DNA of 64,000 bases, taken from Terriglobia bacterium. Its GTDB lineage: Bacteria; Acidobacteriota; Terriglobia; Acidiferrales; UBA7541. The translations under genes and the position numbers were made by a program. Positions 9,271-63,691 of the stretch are shown piece by piece (position 1 is the stretch's first letter; each line of letters begins with the position of its first letter). The notes under the pieces were generated by a model. It ran no database searches, was not told where the DNA came from, and saw only the letters and a program-made list of their open reading frames with translations. The stretch is from assembly GCA_023512135.1 (NCBI GenBank), contig JAIMAG010000003.1, positions 124,001-188,000 of the forward strand, read 5' to 3'.

Positions 9271-11789
<2,519 letters not shown>

Positions 11790-11871
11790 AAAGACGAGAT
11801 CGGCTCCTCTGACGTTGTCCTGAGCAGATGAAGGGTCCGCCTGCTCGCGCTCACACTCATGCAGCCCACCG

Positions 11872-11900
11872 AAGCTAACACACGCCCCGAGGGGTGTCAA
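11872..11900 (-). promoter_or_regulatory. Promoter of metK operon
   Basis: On the minus strand, TTGACA (11895-11900), exactly 17 nt, then TAGCTT (11872-11877). The predicted leader is about 75 nt and holds one clear stem, GAGCAG/CTGCTC (11822-11827 with 11841-11846). I could not match the leader to a known SAM or SAH riboswitch consensus. Confidence 0.6.
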
Positions 11901-12153
11901 CGCATTGCAGCGGAAGGCGTTATTCCCAAGTTGAACGGAAACTTTCCAAGTTCCATCGGTTGTCGTGCCGTGAAGCGTCAGTCGCCGACTCGAACCCACC
12001 CGGAAGGAAACCGCACGGGAGCGTCCTCGTGCCGCGCGGGTGAACATTTCCTCGTCTGCCGCCTCTCCAATGTCTCCTTCCGAACACCGCTCCGTGCTTG
12101 CATCCTGTGAACGGAATCTTCCGACCCGCCGGAAGTATCAAGTTAAATATTAC
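11901..12153. other. Intergenic stretch between divergent transcripts
   Basis: Between the metK promoter and the next promoter on the plus strand. I see no gene with family motifs. Its last 30 nt become strongly AT-rich, unlike the rest of the window. Confidence 0.4.
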
Positions 12154-12181
12154 TTGACAATATAAAAAAAATTGCTACGGA
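12154..12181 (+). promoter_or_regulatory. Promoter of the Cys-rich peptide operon
   Basis: Perfect TTGACA (12154-12159) in an unusually AT-rich stretch. The -10 is less clear: TACGGA at 12176-12181 with a 16-nt spacer is the best placed. A strong GGAGG (12196-12200) stands 5 nt before the ATG at 12206. Confidence 0.5.
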
Positions 12182-12205
12182 TAAGAAAAAAGTCCGGAGG
12201 TCATC

Positions 12206-12469
12206 ATGGGGAGAATGATCTCTTGGCTGCCAGCAGGTTTGAGCATCGCCGGTCACCGCTGGAGAACGTCGATGCGTGTCTGGCTGGTGGTTCTGGTGTA
12301 CGCGCTGAGTCTCGCTTCCACGCCGGCAGCGGCTGAGGACTGCGCGCTCGTTTTTGTCACTTTTGGACCTGCATGCGGATGCAGTCAGGCCTGTGGCTGG
12401 ATTTTGTGTGACGACGGCAGTGCACTCTTTCTTGGGTGCTCCCAACCAATCTGTACAGTTTGCGTATAG
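12206..12469 (+). CDS. Small secreted cysteine-rich peptide
   Basis: Up to 87 residues, not recognised. A hydrophobic signal segment (MRVWLVVLVYALSLAS, then TPAAAE) precedes a ~43-residue mature part with eight cysteines in the pattern DC, PAC, GC, QAC, ILC, LGC, PIC, TVC, consistent with disulfides or metal binding. Two starts are credible: ATG 12206 with GGAGG at 5 nt, or ATG 12272 with GGAG at 7 nt, which gives a more normal signal peptide. A secreted protein gene follows after 12 nt with its own GGAGG, so the two form an operon. Hypothesis: an exported disulfide-rich peptide and partner. Confidence 0.6.
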   Translation: MGRMISWLPAGLSIAGHRWRTSMRVWLVVLVYALSLASTPAAAEDCALVFVTFGPACGCSQACGWILCDDGSALFLGCSQPICTVCV

Positions 12470-12481
12470 CCGGAGGTAGCC

Positions 12482-13117
12482 ATGAGCAAAGGTGCGATGG
12501 GGATTGCTCTTCTTACCCTGTTCCTGCTGGCCTGCGGGCTGCAGCCTGTTGCTGCACAGGAAACTGTGATGCGACTCGACTATGTCGTGATCCGCGAAAG
12601 CCCCGACGGGCAGGGACGGCCCTCACGGAGCGTGATTGCCCGCACCCGGTTCGTTGCGCCGGACGGACGGATGCGCACCGAAGACCGCGACGCCGCTGAC
12701 CCCAACCGTGTCCTTTCCATCTCCATTTCCGACGAAAACCGAGACGAGACCATTCTGCTCGACCCAAACACAAAAACCGCGGTCCGGCGCCGGAACGTCC
12801 GACAGCAGGCCGAACGAGGGATACCCGTGTTCGGCACTTTTGCTCCCGTTCGGGGTGAAAAGGAAAATCTTGGAGCGCGCACGATTCAGGGCTTCGAGTG
12901 CCAGGGCTATCGGAACACCTTCCCGCAGGGGCAGCAAACGGAACACTGGTTCTGCGTGGACCCGCAGTCAGGACGGAAATTCCTGGGCAGCATGAGAGCG
13001 CAACTGGCTGACGGGAGAGACTGGTGGCAGGAAGATCTTCAGAAAATCACCCGCAATGTTCCTGTGGAGCCCGGGTTCTTCGAAGTACCTCCCGATTTTC
13101 GCATCGAAGATAGATAA
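12482..13117 (+). CDS. Secreted protein of unknown function (DUF4412-like beta fold suspected)
   Basis: 211 residues. The signal peptide ends near residue 25 (ACGLQPVAAQ), and the mature part is beta-rich with charged loops. It contains paired segments resembling lipoprotein-carrier-like domains: MRLDYVVIRES, then ILLDPNTKTAVRRR, IQGFECQGYRNTFP and EHWFCVDPQSGRKFLG. The sequence 'extract a value, check that it was modified' is typical of DUF4412-type proteins, but I cannot assign a family firmly. GGAGG lies 6 nt before the ATG. Probably periplasmic and translated with the Cys-rich peptide. Confidence 0.7.
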   Translation: MSKGAMGIALLTLFLLACGLQPVAAQETVMRLDYVVIRESPDGQGRPSRSVIARTRFVAPDGRMRTEDRDAADPNRVLSISISDENRDETILLDPNTKTAVRRRNVRQQAERGIPVFGTFAPVRGEKENLGARTIQGFECQGYRNTFPQGQQTEHWFCVDPQSGRKFLGSMRAQLADGRDWWQEDLQKITRNVPVEPGFFEVPPDFRIEDR

Positions 13118-13220
13118 GCTGCACGCGCAACACGCAGGCGGCAACTGTGTGGCGCCAAGCCGCCGTGCGCACGGCACCGGCAGAGTTCGCGGCACGCGCG
13201 GTGCGGACCAAAACGTGCGG

Positions 13221-14373
13221 CTACTCCTCTGTTTCGGGTGCGGTAGAGGCGACGGCGGCGGGGTTGCGGCGCCAGAGCAGATAGCTGCGGATGAACGGCT
13301 CGAGATCGCCGTCGAGGACGCGATCGGTGTCGCCGGTCTGGTAGCGGGTGCGGTGATCCTTCACCATGCGGTAGGGGTGCAAGACGTAGCTGCGAATCTG
13401 ACTGCCGAAGCTGATCTCCGGCTTGGCGGCGTCGAGTTTGCGCTGCTCCTCGCGCCGCTTTTCGAGTTCGTGCTCGTAGAGCCGGGCGCGAAGCACCTTC
13501 ATGGCCATTTCGCGGTTCTTGTGCTGGCTGCGCTCGTTCTGACATTGAACGACGATGCCGGTGGGCAGGTGCGTGATGCGCACCGCGGAATCGGTGACGT
13601 TGACGTGCTGGCCGCCGTGGCCACCCGCACGGAACGTGTCGATGCGGAGATCTTCCGGCCGGATGACGATTTCGATGCGGTCGTCAATTTCCGGGATGAC
13701 GAACACCGAGGCAAACGAGGTGTGCCGCCGCGCGGCCTGGTCGAACGGAGAGATGCGCACCAGCCGGTGCACACCGCTTTCGCCCTGGAGCAGGCCGTAG
13801 GCATTTTCGCCTTCGATGCGAACGGTGGCGGATTTGAGGCCCGCCTCGTCGCCCGGCGTCAAGTCGAGTACGGTGGCGCGGAAGCCTTCCCGTTCGGCCC
13901 AGCGGAGATACATGCGCAGCAACATTTCGGCCCAGTCCTGCGATTCGGTGCCGCCGGCGCCGGGCTTGATGGTCAGGATGGCGTTCAGCGCATCGTTTTC
14001 GCCGGCGAGCAGCGTGCGAGTTTCCAGTTGCGCGACGTACTGCTCGGCTGCGGCCAGCTCGGCCGCCGCTTCCCGGAGCAGATGCTCCCGCTGTGCAGGA
14101 TCATGTTCCTCACGCGCCAGTTCCAGATAGGTTTCCAAATCGCTCTGCAGACGCGCGAGCCGGTCCTGCGCCGCCAGCAGGCCTTCCAGTTGTTTGCGTT
14201 CCTGCAGGATTCGCTGCGCCTGTTCCGGGTTCTGCCAGAAATCGGGCTGGCCGATGCGGCGTTCCAGTTCCGTCAGCCGTGCGCGGTGGCTTTCGGCGTC
14301 AAAGGTAGCTCCGCACCAGCTCGATGCGGCGCAGGAGCTCTTCGTAGCGGTGTTGCAGGTCTTCGAGAATCAT
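13221..14373 (-). CDS. prfB: Peptide chain release factor 2, with programmed +1 frameshift
   Basis: RF2 recognises UAA and UGA. The first frame starts at ATG 14371-14373 and reads 24 codons to an in-frame UGA at 14299-14301. Shifting +1 after CTT gives a continuous product of about 383 residues. Motifs in the second frame are SPF in VRISPFDQ (the stop-codon selector of RF2) and GGQ in GGHGGQHVN (peptidyl hydrolysis). The shift site is the classic CTT TGA C with an SD-like GGAG a few nt upstream, so free RF2 would autoregulate its own synthesis. An ORF scan alone finds only the part from 14138. The gene follows lnt by 28 nt. Confidence 0.96.
14298..14311 (-). promoter_or_regulatory. RF2 autoregulatory frameshift site
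   Basis: Minus strand reads GGAG, four nt, then CTT TGA C. Low RF2 makes the ribosome pause at UGA and slip +1 into GAC. Same heptamer and spacing principle as the established E. coli prfB element. Confidence 0.93.
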
Positions 14374-59947: not shown

Positions 59948-59956
59948 TGGTATATT
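59948..59956 (+). promoter_or_regulatory. Extended -10 promoter of the Cas12 gene
   Basis: TGG followed by TATATT (59951-59956), an extended -10 shape; no -35 at the usual distance, where moxR ends. It would give a leader of about 13 nt to the ATG at 59976. No ribosome binding site is visible before that ATG. Confidence 0.4.
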
Positions 59957-59975
59957 GCTCACAACAGTAACAGTC

Positions 59976-62279
59976 ATGGCCCAGGCATCGTCCACACCTG
60001 CAGTTTCTCCCCGGCCACGGCCGCGCTACCGCGAGGAGCGCACCCTGGTCCGCAAGCTGCTGCCCCGCCCGGGCCAGTCGAAGCAGGAGTTCCGCGAAAA
60101 CGTAAAGAAGCTGCGCAAGGCATTTCTGCAGTTCAATGCCGATGTTTCCGGCGTCTGCCAGTGGGCCATACAGTTCCGCCCGCGATACGGAAAGCCGGCG
60201 GAGCCAACCGAAACATTCTGGAAATTTTTCCTCGAACCAGAAACTTCCCTGCCCCCGAACGACTCTCGCTCACCCGAATTTCGCCGCCTGCAGGCTTTCG
60301 AGGCCGCCGCGGGCATCAATGGCGCCGCTGCGCTGGATGATCCGGCGTTTACCAACGAGCTGCGCGACTCCATCCTTGCTGTTGCCAGCAGGCCGAAAAC
60401 CAAGGAAGCGCAAAGGCTCTTCTCGCGGTTGAAAGACTATCAGCCGGCCCACCGCATGATCCTCGCGAAAGTCGCGGCCGAATGGATCGAGTCCCGCTAC
60501 CGCCGCGCCCATCAAAACTGGGAACGAAATTACGAAGAATGGAAAAAAGAAAAACAGGAATGGGAGCAAAATCATCCCGAACTCACCCCGGAAATCCGCG
60601 AAGCCTTCAACCAAATCTTCCAGCAGCTGGAAGTGAAAGAAAAACGCGTACGCATCTGCCCGGCCGCGCGTTTGCTTCAGAACAAAGACAACTGCCAATA
60701 CGCCGGCAAGAACAAACACTCCGTACTGTGCAACCAATTTAACGAATTCAAGAAAAACCATCTCCAGGGGAAAGCAATAAAATTTTTCTACAAAGACGCT
60801 GAGAAGTACCTTCGTTGCGGATTGCAATCGCTGAAGCCGAACGTACAAGGGCCGTTTCGGGAAGACTGGAACAAGTACCTGAGGTACATGAACCTCAAGG
60901 AAGAGACTCTTCGCGGAAAAAACGGCGGTCGGCTTCCCCACTGCAAAAATCTCGGGCAGGAGTGCGAGTTCAATCCCCACACCGCACTGTGCAAACAATA
61001 CCAACAGCAGCTCAGCAGCAGGCCGGACCTGGTGCAGCACGATGAGCTCTACCGGAAATGGCGCCGCGAATACTGGCGCGAGCCGCGCAAACCCGTCTTC
61101 CGCTATCCTTCGGTAAAGCGGCACTCGATAGCGAAAATTTTCGGCGAGAACTATTTCCAGGCAGATTTCAAAAACTCCGTCGTTGGTCTGCGGCTGGACA
61201 GCATGCCCGCAGGCCAGTACCTGGAATTCGCTTTCGCCCCCTGGCCGCGGAACTACCGGCCCCAGCCGGGGGAAACCGAAATCTCCAGCGTGCACCTGCA
61301 TTTCGTGGGCACCCGCCCGCGCATCGGTTTCCGTTTCCGCGTCCCCCACAAACGCTCGAGATTCGACTGCACACAGGAAGAACTCGACGAGCTGCGCAGC
61401 CGTACATTCCCGCGCAAGGCCCAGGATCAGAAGTTCCTTGAGGCAGCACGCAAGCGGCTCCTCGAAACGTTCCCGGGCAACGCCGAGCAGGAGCTGCGGC
61501 TGCTGGCCGTGGACCTCGGCACCGATTCGGCCCGGGCGGCGTTCTTCATCGGCAAAACATTTCAGCAGGCCTTTCCGCTGAAAATTGTGAAAATCGAAAA
61601 GCTCTACGAGCAGTGGCCCAACCAGAAACAGGCTGGGGACAGGCGCGATGCCTCCAGCAAACAACCCCGACCCGGGCTCTCCAGGGATCACGTTGGGCGC
61701 CACCTGCAGAAAATGCGCGCGCAAGCCTCAGAAATCGCACAGAAGCGGCAAGAACTGACCGGCACACCGGCTCCGGAAACCACAACCGACCAGGCAGCAA
61801 AGAAAGCTACCCTGCAGCCGTTTGACCTCCGGGGACTGACGGTGCACACGGCGCGGATGATTCGGGACTGGGCACGGCTGAACGCGCGACAAATCATCCA
61901 ACTGGCGGAAGAAAACCAGGTAGACCTGATCGTGCTGGAAAGCCTGCGGGGCTTCAGACCACCCGGCTACGAAAATCTGGATCAGGAGAAGAAGCGCCGC
62001 GTCGCCTTCTTCGCCCACGGACGCATCCGGCGAAAAGTTACCGAAAAAGCCGTCGAACGCGGCATGCGCGTGGTCACCGTACCGTATCTAGCTTCCTCTA
62101 AAGTGTGTGCCGAGTGCCGGAAGAAACAGAAAGACAACAAACAATGGGAAAAGAATAAAAAAAGAGGTCTTTTCAAATGTGAGGGGTGTGGGTCCCAAGC
62201 CCAGGTAGATGAAAATGCGGCTCGCGTGCTCGGCCGGGTATTCTGGGGCGAAATCGAGCTGCCGACCGCAATCCCCTGA
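59976..62279 (+). CDS. cas12g: Type V CRISPR effector, Cas12g (RNA-guided RuvC nuclease)
   Basis: 767 residues from ATG 59976; an in-frame TTG at 59955 would add seven. The C-terminal RuvC nuclease is complete: RuvC-I LLAVDLGTDSA with Asp513, RuvC-II LIVLESLRG with Glu655, and RuvC-III VDENAARVL with Asp745. Between II and III a zinc ribbon (C711, C714, C735, C738) sits where TnpB and Cas12 proteins keep it. The N-terminal ~500 residues are helical and Lys/Glu-rich with two further Cys triplets (228/240/252 and 323/330/339). Length, Asp513 and the adjacent tracrRNA candidate match what I recall of Cas12g1 (type V-G), a tracrRNA-dependent RNase with collateral RNA and ssDNA cutting. Its Lys/Asn-rich central part is less GC-rich than its neighbours, suggesting transfer. 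Another compact type V subtype is the alternative. Confidence 0.9.
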   Translation: MAQASSTPAVSPRPRPRYREERTLVRKLLPRPGQSKQEFRENVKKLRKAFLQFNADVSGVCQWAIQFRPRYGKPAEPTETFWKFFLEPETSLPPNDSRSPEFRRLQAFEAAAGINGAAALDDPAFTNELRDSILAVASRPKTKEAQRLFSRLKDYQPAHRMILAKVAAEWIESRYRRAHQNWERNYEEWKKEKQEWEQNHPELTPEIREAFNQIFQQLEVKEKRVRICPAARLLQNKDNCQYAGKNKHSVLCNQFNEFKKNHLQGKAIKFFYKDAEKYLRCGLQSLKPNVQGPFREDWNKYLRYMNLKEETLRGKNGGRLPHCKNLGQECEFNPHTALCKQYQQQLSSRPDLVQHDELYRKWRREYWREPRKPVFRYPSVKRHSIAKIFGENYFQADFKNSVVGLRLDSMPAGQYLEFAFAPWPRNYRPQPGETEISSVHLHFVGTRPRIGFRFRVPHKRSRFDCTQEELDELRSRTFPRKAQDQKFLEAARKRLLETFPGNAEQELRLLAVDLGTDSARAAFFIGKTFQQAFPLKIVKIEKLYEQWPNQKQAGDRRDASSKQPRPGLSRDHVGRHLQKMRAQASEIAQKRQELTGTPAPETTTDQAAKKATLQPFDLRGLTVHTARMIRDWARLNARQIIQLAEENQVDLIVLESLRGFRPPGYENLDQEKKRRVAFFAHGRIRRKVTEKAVERGMRVVTVPYLASSKVCAECRKKQKDNKQWEKNKKRGLFKCEGCGSQAQVDENAARVLGRVFWGEIELPTAIP

Positions 62280-62472: not shown

Positions 62473-63298
62473 GGTGGAAAGGGCCGGAGATTTACCGGCT
62501 CTGACACCGAGTCGTATAATTGGCATGCCACGCATTCAGGTGGAAAGGGCCGGAGATTTACCGGCTCTGACACCCTGGCCACCTCGCCCGGTATCACCCT
62601 GTCGGGTGGAAAGGGCCGGAGATTTACCGGCTCTGACACCAACCAGTGCGGCCAGAGGTGCCTCTCATCGGGTGGAAAGGGCCGGAGATTTACCGGCTCT
62701 GACACCGCATCAGCCAGCGATTCCCGCAGCGCCTCGGGTGGAAAGGGCCGGAGATTTACCGGCTCTGACACCATTCGAGCCTGTCCCAGTTGCCAGCCAG
62801 CAGGTGGAAAGGGCCGGAGATTTACCGGCTCTGACACCTGAACTGCACCGCGAGCGAGAACGAGCGGAGGTGGAAAGGGCCGGAGATTTACCGGCTCTGA
62901 CACCCGGCTTGACCTGAGTCGCCACGCGACGCCTGGTGGAAAGGGCCGGAGATTTACCGGCTCTGACACCCATCTTCTGCGCGACCCACGTGACCCGCCC
63001 GGTGGAAAGGGCCGGAGATTTACCGGCTCTGACACCTCGCCATAGATCACCCCTTGGCCCCCTGGAGGTGGAAAGGGCCGGAGATTTACCGGCTCTGACA
63101 CCCGTGAGCGGTACCAGTCGGGAGCGTGGCAGGGTGGAAAGGGCCGGAGATTTACCGGCTCTGACACCTCAGGCTCGTCTTTCCGTGGCCGCGCGGAGGT
63201 GGAAAGGGCCGGAGATTTACCGGCTCTGACACCTCTTGCTCGATTACGACGTGGGAAGACGTGGTGGAAAGGGCCGGAGATTTACCGGCTCTGACACC
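62473..63298 (+). CRISPR. CRISPR array, 13 identical 36-bp repeats and 12 spacers
   Basis: Repeats start at 62473, 62539, 62605, 62671, 62737, 62803, 62869, 62935, 63001, 63067, 63133, 63198 and 63263. All 13 are identical; they begin GGTGGAAAGGGCC and end GGCTCTGACACC. Spacers 1-10 are 30 nt and spacers 11-12 are 29 nt. The repeat is a near-palindrome: AGGGCCGG (8-15) pairs with CCGGCTCT (23-30) around a 7-nt loop, and GGTG (1-4) pairs with CACC (33-36). The plus strand is the likely crRNA strand, because the anti-repeat RNA is upstream and the 3' end GACACC resembles type V repeats. Spacers look unrelated to each other and to this window by eye. Confidence 0.98.
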
Positions 63299-63691
63299 GA
63301 AACACGCGAGCAAAAGCCGGCCTCTCAGCTACGCACACCACGACGAACCAAACCTGCCGGGGCTACTCCAGGCCGTCCTTTCGCTGGCGGACGCAGCCGC
63401 ACTGACCACGGGCACACTCCCGCGAACAGGAGAAATTCGTCCCGGCAGAAAATGCAGGGGGATCGGCTCCCCAGAGGCTCGCGTGCAGCGCAGTGAAGAA
63501 GTTCATCCAGACGCAAAAAGCGGCGAGAAGCGCAAGCCGGGCGTGTGGATCCAGCCGGCCCGCGCATGAAGACTCCGCTGTGCGAGTCCAGTGTTCGGCT
63601 GGTGTGCAGGAAACAGAGTCAGCACAGATACGCCAACAGACAGCAACTGTGTGATTTTCGTCTCGGGGCCGGGCTGAGATAATCCTGGCCG
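63299..63691. other. Region after the array, no gene recognised
   Basis: 393 nt between the last repeat and the DUF58-like start. An open frame runs out of the last repeat to 63569 but has no recognisable motif, and the minus strand offers only frames without motifs. No further repeat remnant, cas gene fragment, transposase or tRNA is visible. It may be the distal flank of the inserted segment. Confidence 0.45.
63678..63683 (+). promoter_or_regulatory. Possible -10 box of the DUF58-like gene
   Basis: GATAAT, 8 nt before the ATG at 63692; no clear -35. If real, the gene has its own start of transcription, now that moxR is 3.7 kb away. Confidence 0.3.

Follow-up and report, generated by a model that had tools for sequence, protein, structure and literature searches.

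RseB and MucB are periplasmic proteins similar to LolA; they bind lipid and keep watch over an anti-sigma factor (PMC7400510). Defensin-like bacteriocins also exist in bacteria; according to PMC6989792, defensins hold three to six disulfides and actifensin has six cysteines. The locus described here, in a 64 000-nt stretch of Terriglobia DNA (the whole of which we call the window), encodes a Cys-rich peptide and a larger partner protein that can be set beside these systems. The peptide resembles the defensin-like bacteriocins (laterosporulins and actifensins) in being small, Cys-rich and beta-rich in its model, but differs from them in its eight cysteines, acidic composition, signal-peptide-like start and lack of a significant fold match. 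The partner can be likened to RseB and MucB in that its relatives sit third, after sigma and anti-sigma-like genes, and in that it is strand-rich at low confidence; unlike a member of that group, it has no sequence match to them, and the functional likeness is one that we infer. Its nearest kin are a secreted family, marked by the sequence TIPAGQIGN, that we take to be one of the Acidobacteriota. The partner matches the C-terminal half of that family and has a signal-peptide-like start, whereas it is shorter, has lost the family's loop, and is preceded by a Cys-rich peptide instead of an anti-sigma-like gene.

Both genes lie on the forward strand between metK and prfB, with 12 nt from the stop of one to the start of the other (Table 1). 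A preliminary description had placed this ORF pair correctly, including the spacing and the GGAGG ahead of each ATG, and its mature peptide of ~43 residues with eight cysteines agrees closely with the 44 residues and 8 Cys obtained from our cut by inspection. Three intrinsic terminators were found at 11780-13230, compared to 1.6 expected.

Table 1. Features of the peptide–partner locus and its flanks, in window positions
Feature	Position	Strand	Evidence
metK (S-adenosylmethionine synthetase), flank	10581..11789	-	Pfam S-AdoMet_synt N, M, C
AT-rich upstream region, putative promoter, TTGACA at 12154-12159	12132..12191	+	78% AT 60-mer
Inverted repeat TCAAGT-N8-ACTTGA overlapping TTGACA, putative operator	12138..12157	+	Sequence
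Ribosome-binding site of peptide gene	12196..12200	+	GGAGG, 5 nt before ATG
Orphan secreted-type Cys-rich peptide P0001, 87 aa	12206..12469	+	ORF ATG...TAG, translation, shuffles
Inferred mature peptide, 44 aa, 8 Cys	12335..12466	+	Cut after ...STPAAA by inspection
Ribosome-binding site of partner gene	12472..12476	+	GGAGG, 5 nt before ATG
Secreted-type partner P0002, 211 aa; belongs, in short and diverged form, to an uncharacterised secreted family	12482..13117	+	Profile match, third-position excess
prfB (peptide chain release factor), flank	13221..14138	-	Pfam PCRF and RF-1

Read from its first ATG, the peptide has a long n-region, while an alternative in-frame ATG at 12272 gives a 65-aa product with a classic 21-residue signal peptide, MRVWLVVLVYALSLASTPAAA (both by inspection). 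The mature form, given the cut in Table 1, begins with EDC; its cysteines are separated by gaps of 10, 1, 3, 4, 9, 4, and 2 residues and include CxC and CxxC motifs, and it carries a net charge of -4 without any Lys, Arg or His. From these features we infer that the peptide is exported and that its cysteines form disulfides. The ORF was compared with 5000 dinucleotide-preserving shuffles of 12150-12481. An ORF of at least 87 aa arose in 197 of them, and one of at least 60 aa ending no more than 40 nt from the partner arose in 536, a number that fell to 23 when a ribosome-binding site was added; all criteria together, including a hydrophobic start and 8 Cys (both chosen post hoc, with the ORF already seen), were satisfied by none of the 5000. 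Among the 259 window ORFs of 50-150 aa, two combine at least 7 Cys with a hydrophobic start, and the peptide ORF alone has a ribosome-binding site as well. Its codon usage is unlike that of host genes in every frame, just 0.12% of sampled 87-codon stretches from called genes scoring equally low. The peptide is probably a real gene, its ORF being more than chance would give. Neither product has any match in PHROGs or PADLOC, nor any Pfam or NCBIfam family above cut-off.

Two overlapping sets of related genomes, of 151 and 349, yielded no credible relative of the peptide. The full-length peptide gave matches at E ≤1 in 97 of the 151, the window's own scoring 1.5e-56; the best non-self match (E 0.007, at locus L003) covers the signal-peptide half, and among the matches listed most are partial. 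The mature peptide gave six matches at E ≤0.01 in the 349 genomes, the window's own and five others, and inspection of those five loci revealed a small secreted Cys-rich ORF in none; the one at L074, rejected as a candidate, is a 39-aa ORF with 5 Cys that lies out of frame within a 260-aa ORF. Of the 349 genomes, 83 matched a six-cysteine DNA pattern, but the reversed control matched as well and most of the matches listed are CTG/TTG-type repeats, which makes this pattern uninformative. Relatives of the peptide were likewise absent from plasmids and phages, and from GTDB contigs and viral contigs, where the searches, which are seeded by short exact peptide matches, extend no further than close relatives. 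A sequence search of the PDB returned nothing meaningful for the pair and no defensin matching the peptide. Among the papers listed on secreted Cys-rich small proteins, most concern plants, fungi and animals and one concerns E. coli T6SS; judged by title, none deals with a peptide of this kind. Of the two findings that the preliminary description had said would together count against it, one, the absence of a homologue whose cysteines are conserved, is what these searches show.

That the partner is a real gene is almost certain; profile comparison places it, as a short and diverged form, in a secreted family widespread in the phylum. Its N-terminus is a signal-peptide-like segment ending ...PVAAQE, in which LLAC might alternatively pass for a weak lipobox (by inspection). 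Searching with the partner sequence itself found matches in 3 of 151 and 7 of 349 genomes, each count including its own genome and that of a congener, G001. A relative in G070, 28% identical to the partner, served as a broader query and matched 58 of 101 genomes, at a cut-off where the partner's own genome gave no match. An HMM built from 31 relatives with the partner left out recovered it at 24.6 bits (E 7.4e-10, in a one-sequence search with filters off). Two profiles that include the partner were also applied: that of alignment A1 matched 40 of 61 genomes, and gave the partner as the only family match in its own genome; that of four short forms matched 59 of 386 genomes of the phylum, many of these matches being long forms. 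The fit is to the family's C-terminal half (LG-TI-G, E-W, P--F-VP-DF). The TIPAGQIGNxKPI loop typical of the family is deleted in the partner and altered in the short relatives L068, L069, and L071. In GTDB contigs, under short-exact-peptide seeding that reaches close relatives only, the partner had no match.

We found no Pfam model for the family, the nearest being DUF4412 (PF14371), to which the partner scores 13.6 bits (E 0.059), below the gathering cut-off of 21.6 bits; of the 14 members of alignment A1, three match it at E ≤0.1 (best 7.5e-05), and the partner is one of these. DUF4412 goes unmentioned in the text collection that we searched. It was the sole Pfam hit for the partner at E ≤10, with neither RseB/MucB nor LolA appearing in a search whose filters drop most weak matches, and the family profile found no fitting structure, and no RseB, among solved structures. 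The partner had been described as beta-rich: ten strands are predicted, and a short helix separates strand 6 from strand 7, but the model is of low confidence (pLDDT 42.9).

Across the family, 47 distinct loci of relatives were compared, and in 40 of them the ORF directly upstream of the family gene is anti-sigma-like, as counted with a profile grown from one anti-sigma-like protein and iterated on the same locus set; counting by eye gave 36 of 47, the profile count using a wider upstream limit. In twelve cases the upstream match and the family gene share 4 nt. Such a neighbour is thus usual, not universal, in the family. The seven loci without it are L033, L038, L040, L046, L068, L069, and L071, of which L033, L068, L069, and L071 were retrieved by the partner searches and L038 is the best match of L033. 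The window's partner also has no anti-sigma-like gene upstream, its flanks being metK and prfB. At the four loci that we opened up, sigma-70 regions 2 and 4 are present in the gene that precedes the anti-sigma-like one, and scanning of three anti-sigma candidates gave zf-HC2 in one and no match in two. Because of this sigma/anti-sigma-like operon context, the usual family members look like a counterpart of RseB/MucB by position, not by membership. Operons of the form sigma, anti-sigma-like, secreted member run at L156 2222-4479, L157 2405-4774, L158 1714-3951, and L159 2331-4517; they are a candidate counterpart of rpoE-rseA-rseB in the phylum, with a secreted member that has no Pfam name.

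The peptide does not travel with the family at the loci examined. A filter for upstream ORFs (at least 5 Cys, hydrophobic start, <200 aa, within 600 nt) was passed at one of 64 family ORFs (47 distinct), L033, by an overlapping out-of-frame ORF 480 nt away, and at 29 further family loci no such peptide lies upstream. With the hydrophobic requirement off, the upstream ORFs having at least 5 Cys are mostly Arg-rich and look, by eye, like wrong frames. Conservation of the pairing had been proposed as a check; the peptide–partner pair is absent from all the other family loci examined.

The interval that holds the pair is a small variable cargo site. We matched prfB in 57 of 61 genomes and retrieved loci for 30, the window's own and 29 others. 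The prfB–metK adjacency is found at 27 of the 29, and in the remaining two metK was not found within the retrieved stretch. Taken as the distance between where the prfB match ends and where metK is extrapolated to start, the gap spans 224-479 nt in 19 of the 27 relatives and 823-1230 nt, with other ORFs, in eight (L129, L130, L133, L137, L139, L143, L147, and L154). The cargo at L143 is toxin-antitoxin-like, a Phd/YefM antitoxin with a PIN-domain protein. Neither the peptide nor the partner was found at the 29 other prfB loci at tblastn E ≤1e-6. ORF fragments of the form CQR-IAA...NGE, similar to a block upstream of metK, occur in the gaps of L129, L130, and L133, and in a looser form in L146. 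That block is shared by the window (11790-11939) and the congener (L036 ~1089-1240), and is perhaps a conserved metK leader or promoter; an Rfam scan of the window at gathering score gave one tRNA as its sole match.

The congener G001, one same-genus genome among the 151 searched, has the end of prfB, the gap and metK contiguous on contig C117. Within its gap, one stretch is homologous to 12853-13117 (roughly the final 40% of the partner) and aligns with three frame-shifting gaps, whereas the AT-rich region, the peptide and the first part of the partner find no match there. Between the partner and this remnant, differences at codon positions 1, 2, and 3 number 9/88, 8/87, and 43/89, as compared to 9/364, 5/363, and 105/363 for metK and 4/158, 1/158, and 33/158 for prfB. 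This third-position excess means that the partner was once under purifying selection, as seen over its last ~88 codons; it was a selected protein through most of the period after the split and broke later in G001. The small alignment gaps in G001 could be assembly errors, which do not explain the missing first part. Recent foreign gain of the partner was ruled out because the congener keeps a decayed remnant at the same site. The separate origin proposed in the preliminary description is thus only partly borne out: the gap does hold other genes in relatives, and the partner's codon score (0.043) is the lowest of 41 genes >150 aa (mean 0.439, sd 0.118; genes called by script, unannotated), but the partner's arrival was not recent.

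The 60-mer at 12132 is the most AT-rich of the window, whose GC content is 64%. The second most AT-rich (72%, at 62121) is within a Cas12g gene, the remaining gaps between called genes in the window have at most 58% AT, and the prfB–metK gaps of the 27 relatives reach at most 70%. The Cas12g gene holds several other AT-rich 60-mers of the window. It encodes, to judge from sequence matches, what is apparently the known Cas12g, a type V-G effector (59955-62279, +; PADLOC Cas12g, 1189 bits), with ~1770 bits to solved structures 6xmf, 8i3q, and 8i16 across residues 8-774, and is followed by a CRISPR array at 62473-63319 with 13 repeats spaced 65-66 nt apart. We presume that its occurrence would fit a hot-spring origin. 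The AT-rich promoter claimed upstream of the peptide is borne out in its extreme AT-richness, but is only putative as a promoter: TTGACA is perfect, but hexamers 15-19 nt further on match TATAAT at no more than two of six positions, and a consensus promoter scan found none upstream of the peptide. The inverted repeat in Table 1 has exact 6-nt arms, which fall below the reach of our inverted-repeat search, set at length 8; it is the window's only match to its pattern at up to two mismatches, shuffles averaging 0.80. A regulator may possibly act there.

We favor, at a probability of about 0.4, the reading that the locus is a lineage-specific, dispensable two-gene envelope module in the prfB–metK cargo gap, comprising an exported disulfide peptide and a LolA/RseB-like binding protein. 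Gene 1 would export through Sec an orphan, acidic, disulfide-rich peptide of ~44 residues, and gene 2 would supply a periplasmic protein from a family usually found in ECF sigma/anti-sigma operons. Judging by its predicted run of strands, the partner would most likely work like a LolA/RseB-type half-barrel that binds a hydrophobic or peptide ligand. The two genes would be co-transcribed and their products would act jointly in the cell envelope, where the partner might bind or stabilize the folded peptide, or bind a lipid that the peptide acts on. Their adjacency is what suggests this cooperation, and the pair looks restricted to one lineage.

Two alternatives centre on the partner. The partner could be the sole functional gene, the peptide ORF upstream of it being short-lived or without meaning, and perhaps a fragment left by decay. 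The peptide's missing homologues, its host-unlike codon use in every frame, and its absence from the congener's gap and from other family loci are all consistent with this, yet a start codon, ribosome-binding site, hydrophobic segment and 8 Cys came together in none of the 5000 shuffles, and we regard this explanation as doubtful, if a serious contender. Alternatively, the locus might be the relic of an ECF sigma/anti-sigma envelope-stress operon, whose former third gene, the partner, now has its own promoter and still serves as a stress sensor or effector. The anti-sigma-like gene that precedes so many family members (with the sigma gene too at the four loci opened up) points this way, as does the partner's position as the only family match in its genome; moreover, an anti-sigma query that matched 9 of 21 genomes had no match in the window's genome or in G001. 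That was a single query, however, and it also missed the operon-bearing G008. Furthermore, L033, L038, L068, L069, and L071 lie outside such operons, so the short form may constitute a subfamily of its own, and since these loci have no anti-sigma-like neighbour the sigma link may not hold for the partner's branch. We consider such a relic unlikely. The envelope-stress role suggested in the preliminary description accordingly draws weak, indirect support from the 40 of 47 loci and the ECF-type sigma genes at four, and is set back by the partner's place outside such an operon in a genome with no match to the single anti-sigma query.

Other readings centre on the peptide. As a bacteriocin-like pair, the locus would encode a secreted disulfide-rich antibacterial peptide and an immunity or carrier partner, held as gap cargo and lost in the congener. 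The peptide is indeed small, secreted-type and Cys-rich with no relatives found, its upstream region is AT-rich, it sits at a cargo site with turnover in the congener, and bacteria are known to make defensin-like bacteriocins (PMC6989792). Of five models of the mature peptide, the best, with four strands, has a pLDDT of 88, and the others 68, 66, 64, and 43. In Foldseek, this model places laterosporulins at ranks 2-4, but with E 1.3-1.5 and no match at E ≤0.001; VIA gives them Z 3.7, but none of 998 chains reaches Z ≥5, the top being a cystatin-type inhibitor at 4.9, and we assign no fold on these grounds. Further points against are the net charge of -4 with Lys and Arg absent, eight cysteines compared to six in actifensin (PMC6989792), a metK–prfB interval without a maturation or export gene, and a partner without a PADLOC match. 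The bacteriocin idea of the preliminary description thus finds little in its favor, and we hold it to be distinctly unlikely. Improbable as well is that the peptide founds a new class of secreted acidic four-disulfide effectors, signal or weapon, with the LolA/RseB-like partner as its carrier, receptor or immunity protein; if true, a fold for sensing envelope stress would have been redeployed to look after a toxin or signal that arose within the lineage. The same description had also proposed metal binding, in which the cysteines would bind metal outside the cytoplasm and the partner would pass it on. The CxC and CxxC motifs and the accessory position fit this, although nothing apart from the cysteines is specific to it: the mature peptide has no His, the interval has no metal transporter, and the profile databases name no family above cut-off. 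Exported cysteines are normally oxidized to disulfides, which also counts against metal binding, and we deem it very improbable.

Taken alone, the pair is accessory cargo of a single lineage, and in the one congener searched it is either broken or absent. As a small orphan gene in an unusual layout, the peptide is a good candidate, and the partner ties it to a large secreted family, mostly found behind anti-sigma-like genes, for which we found no named function. Establishing the role of either gene would offer a first way into that family, possibly the phylum's counterpart of RseB.
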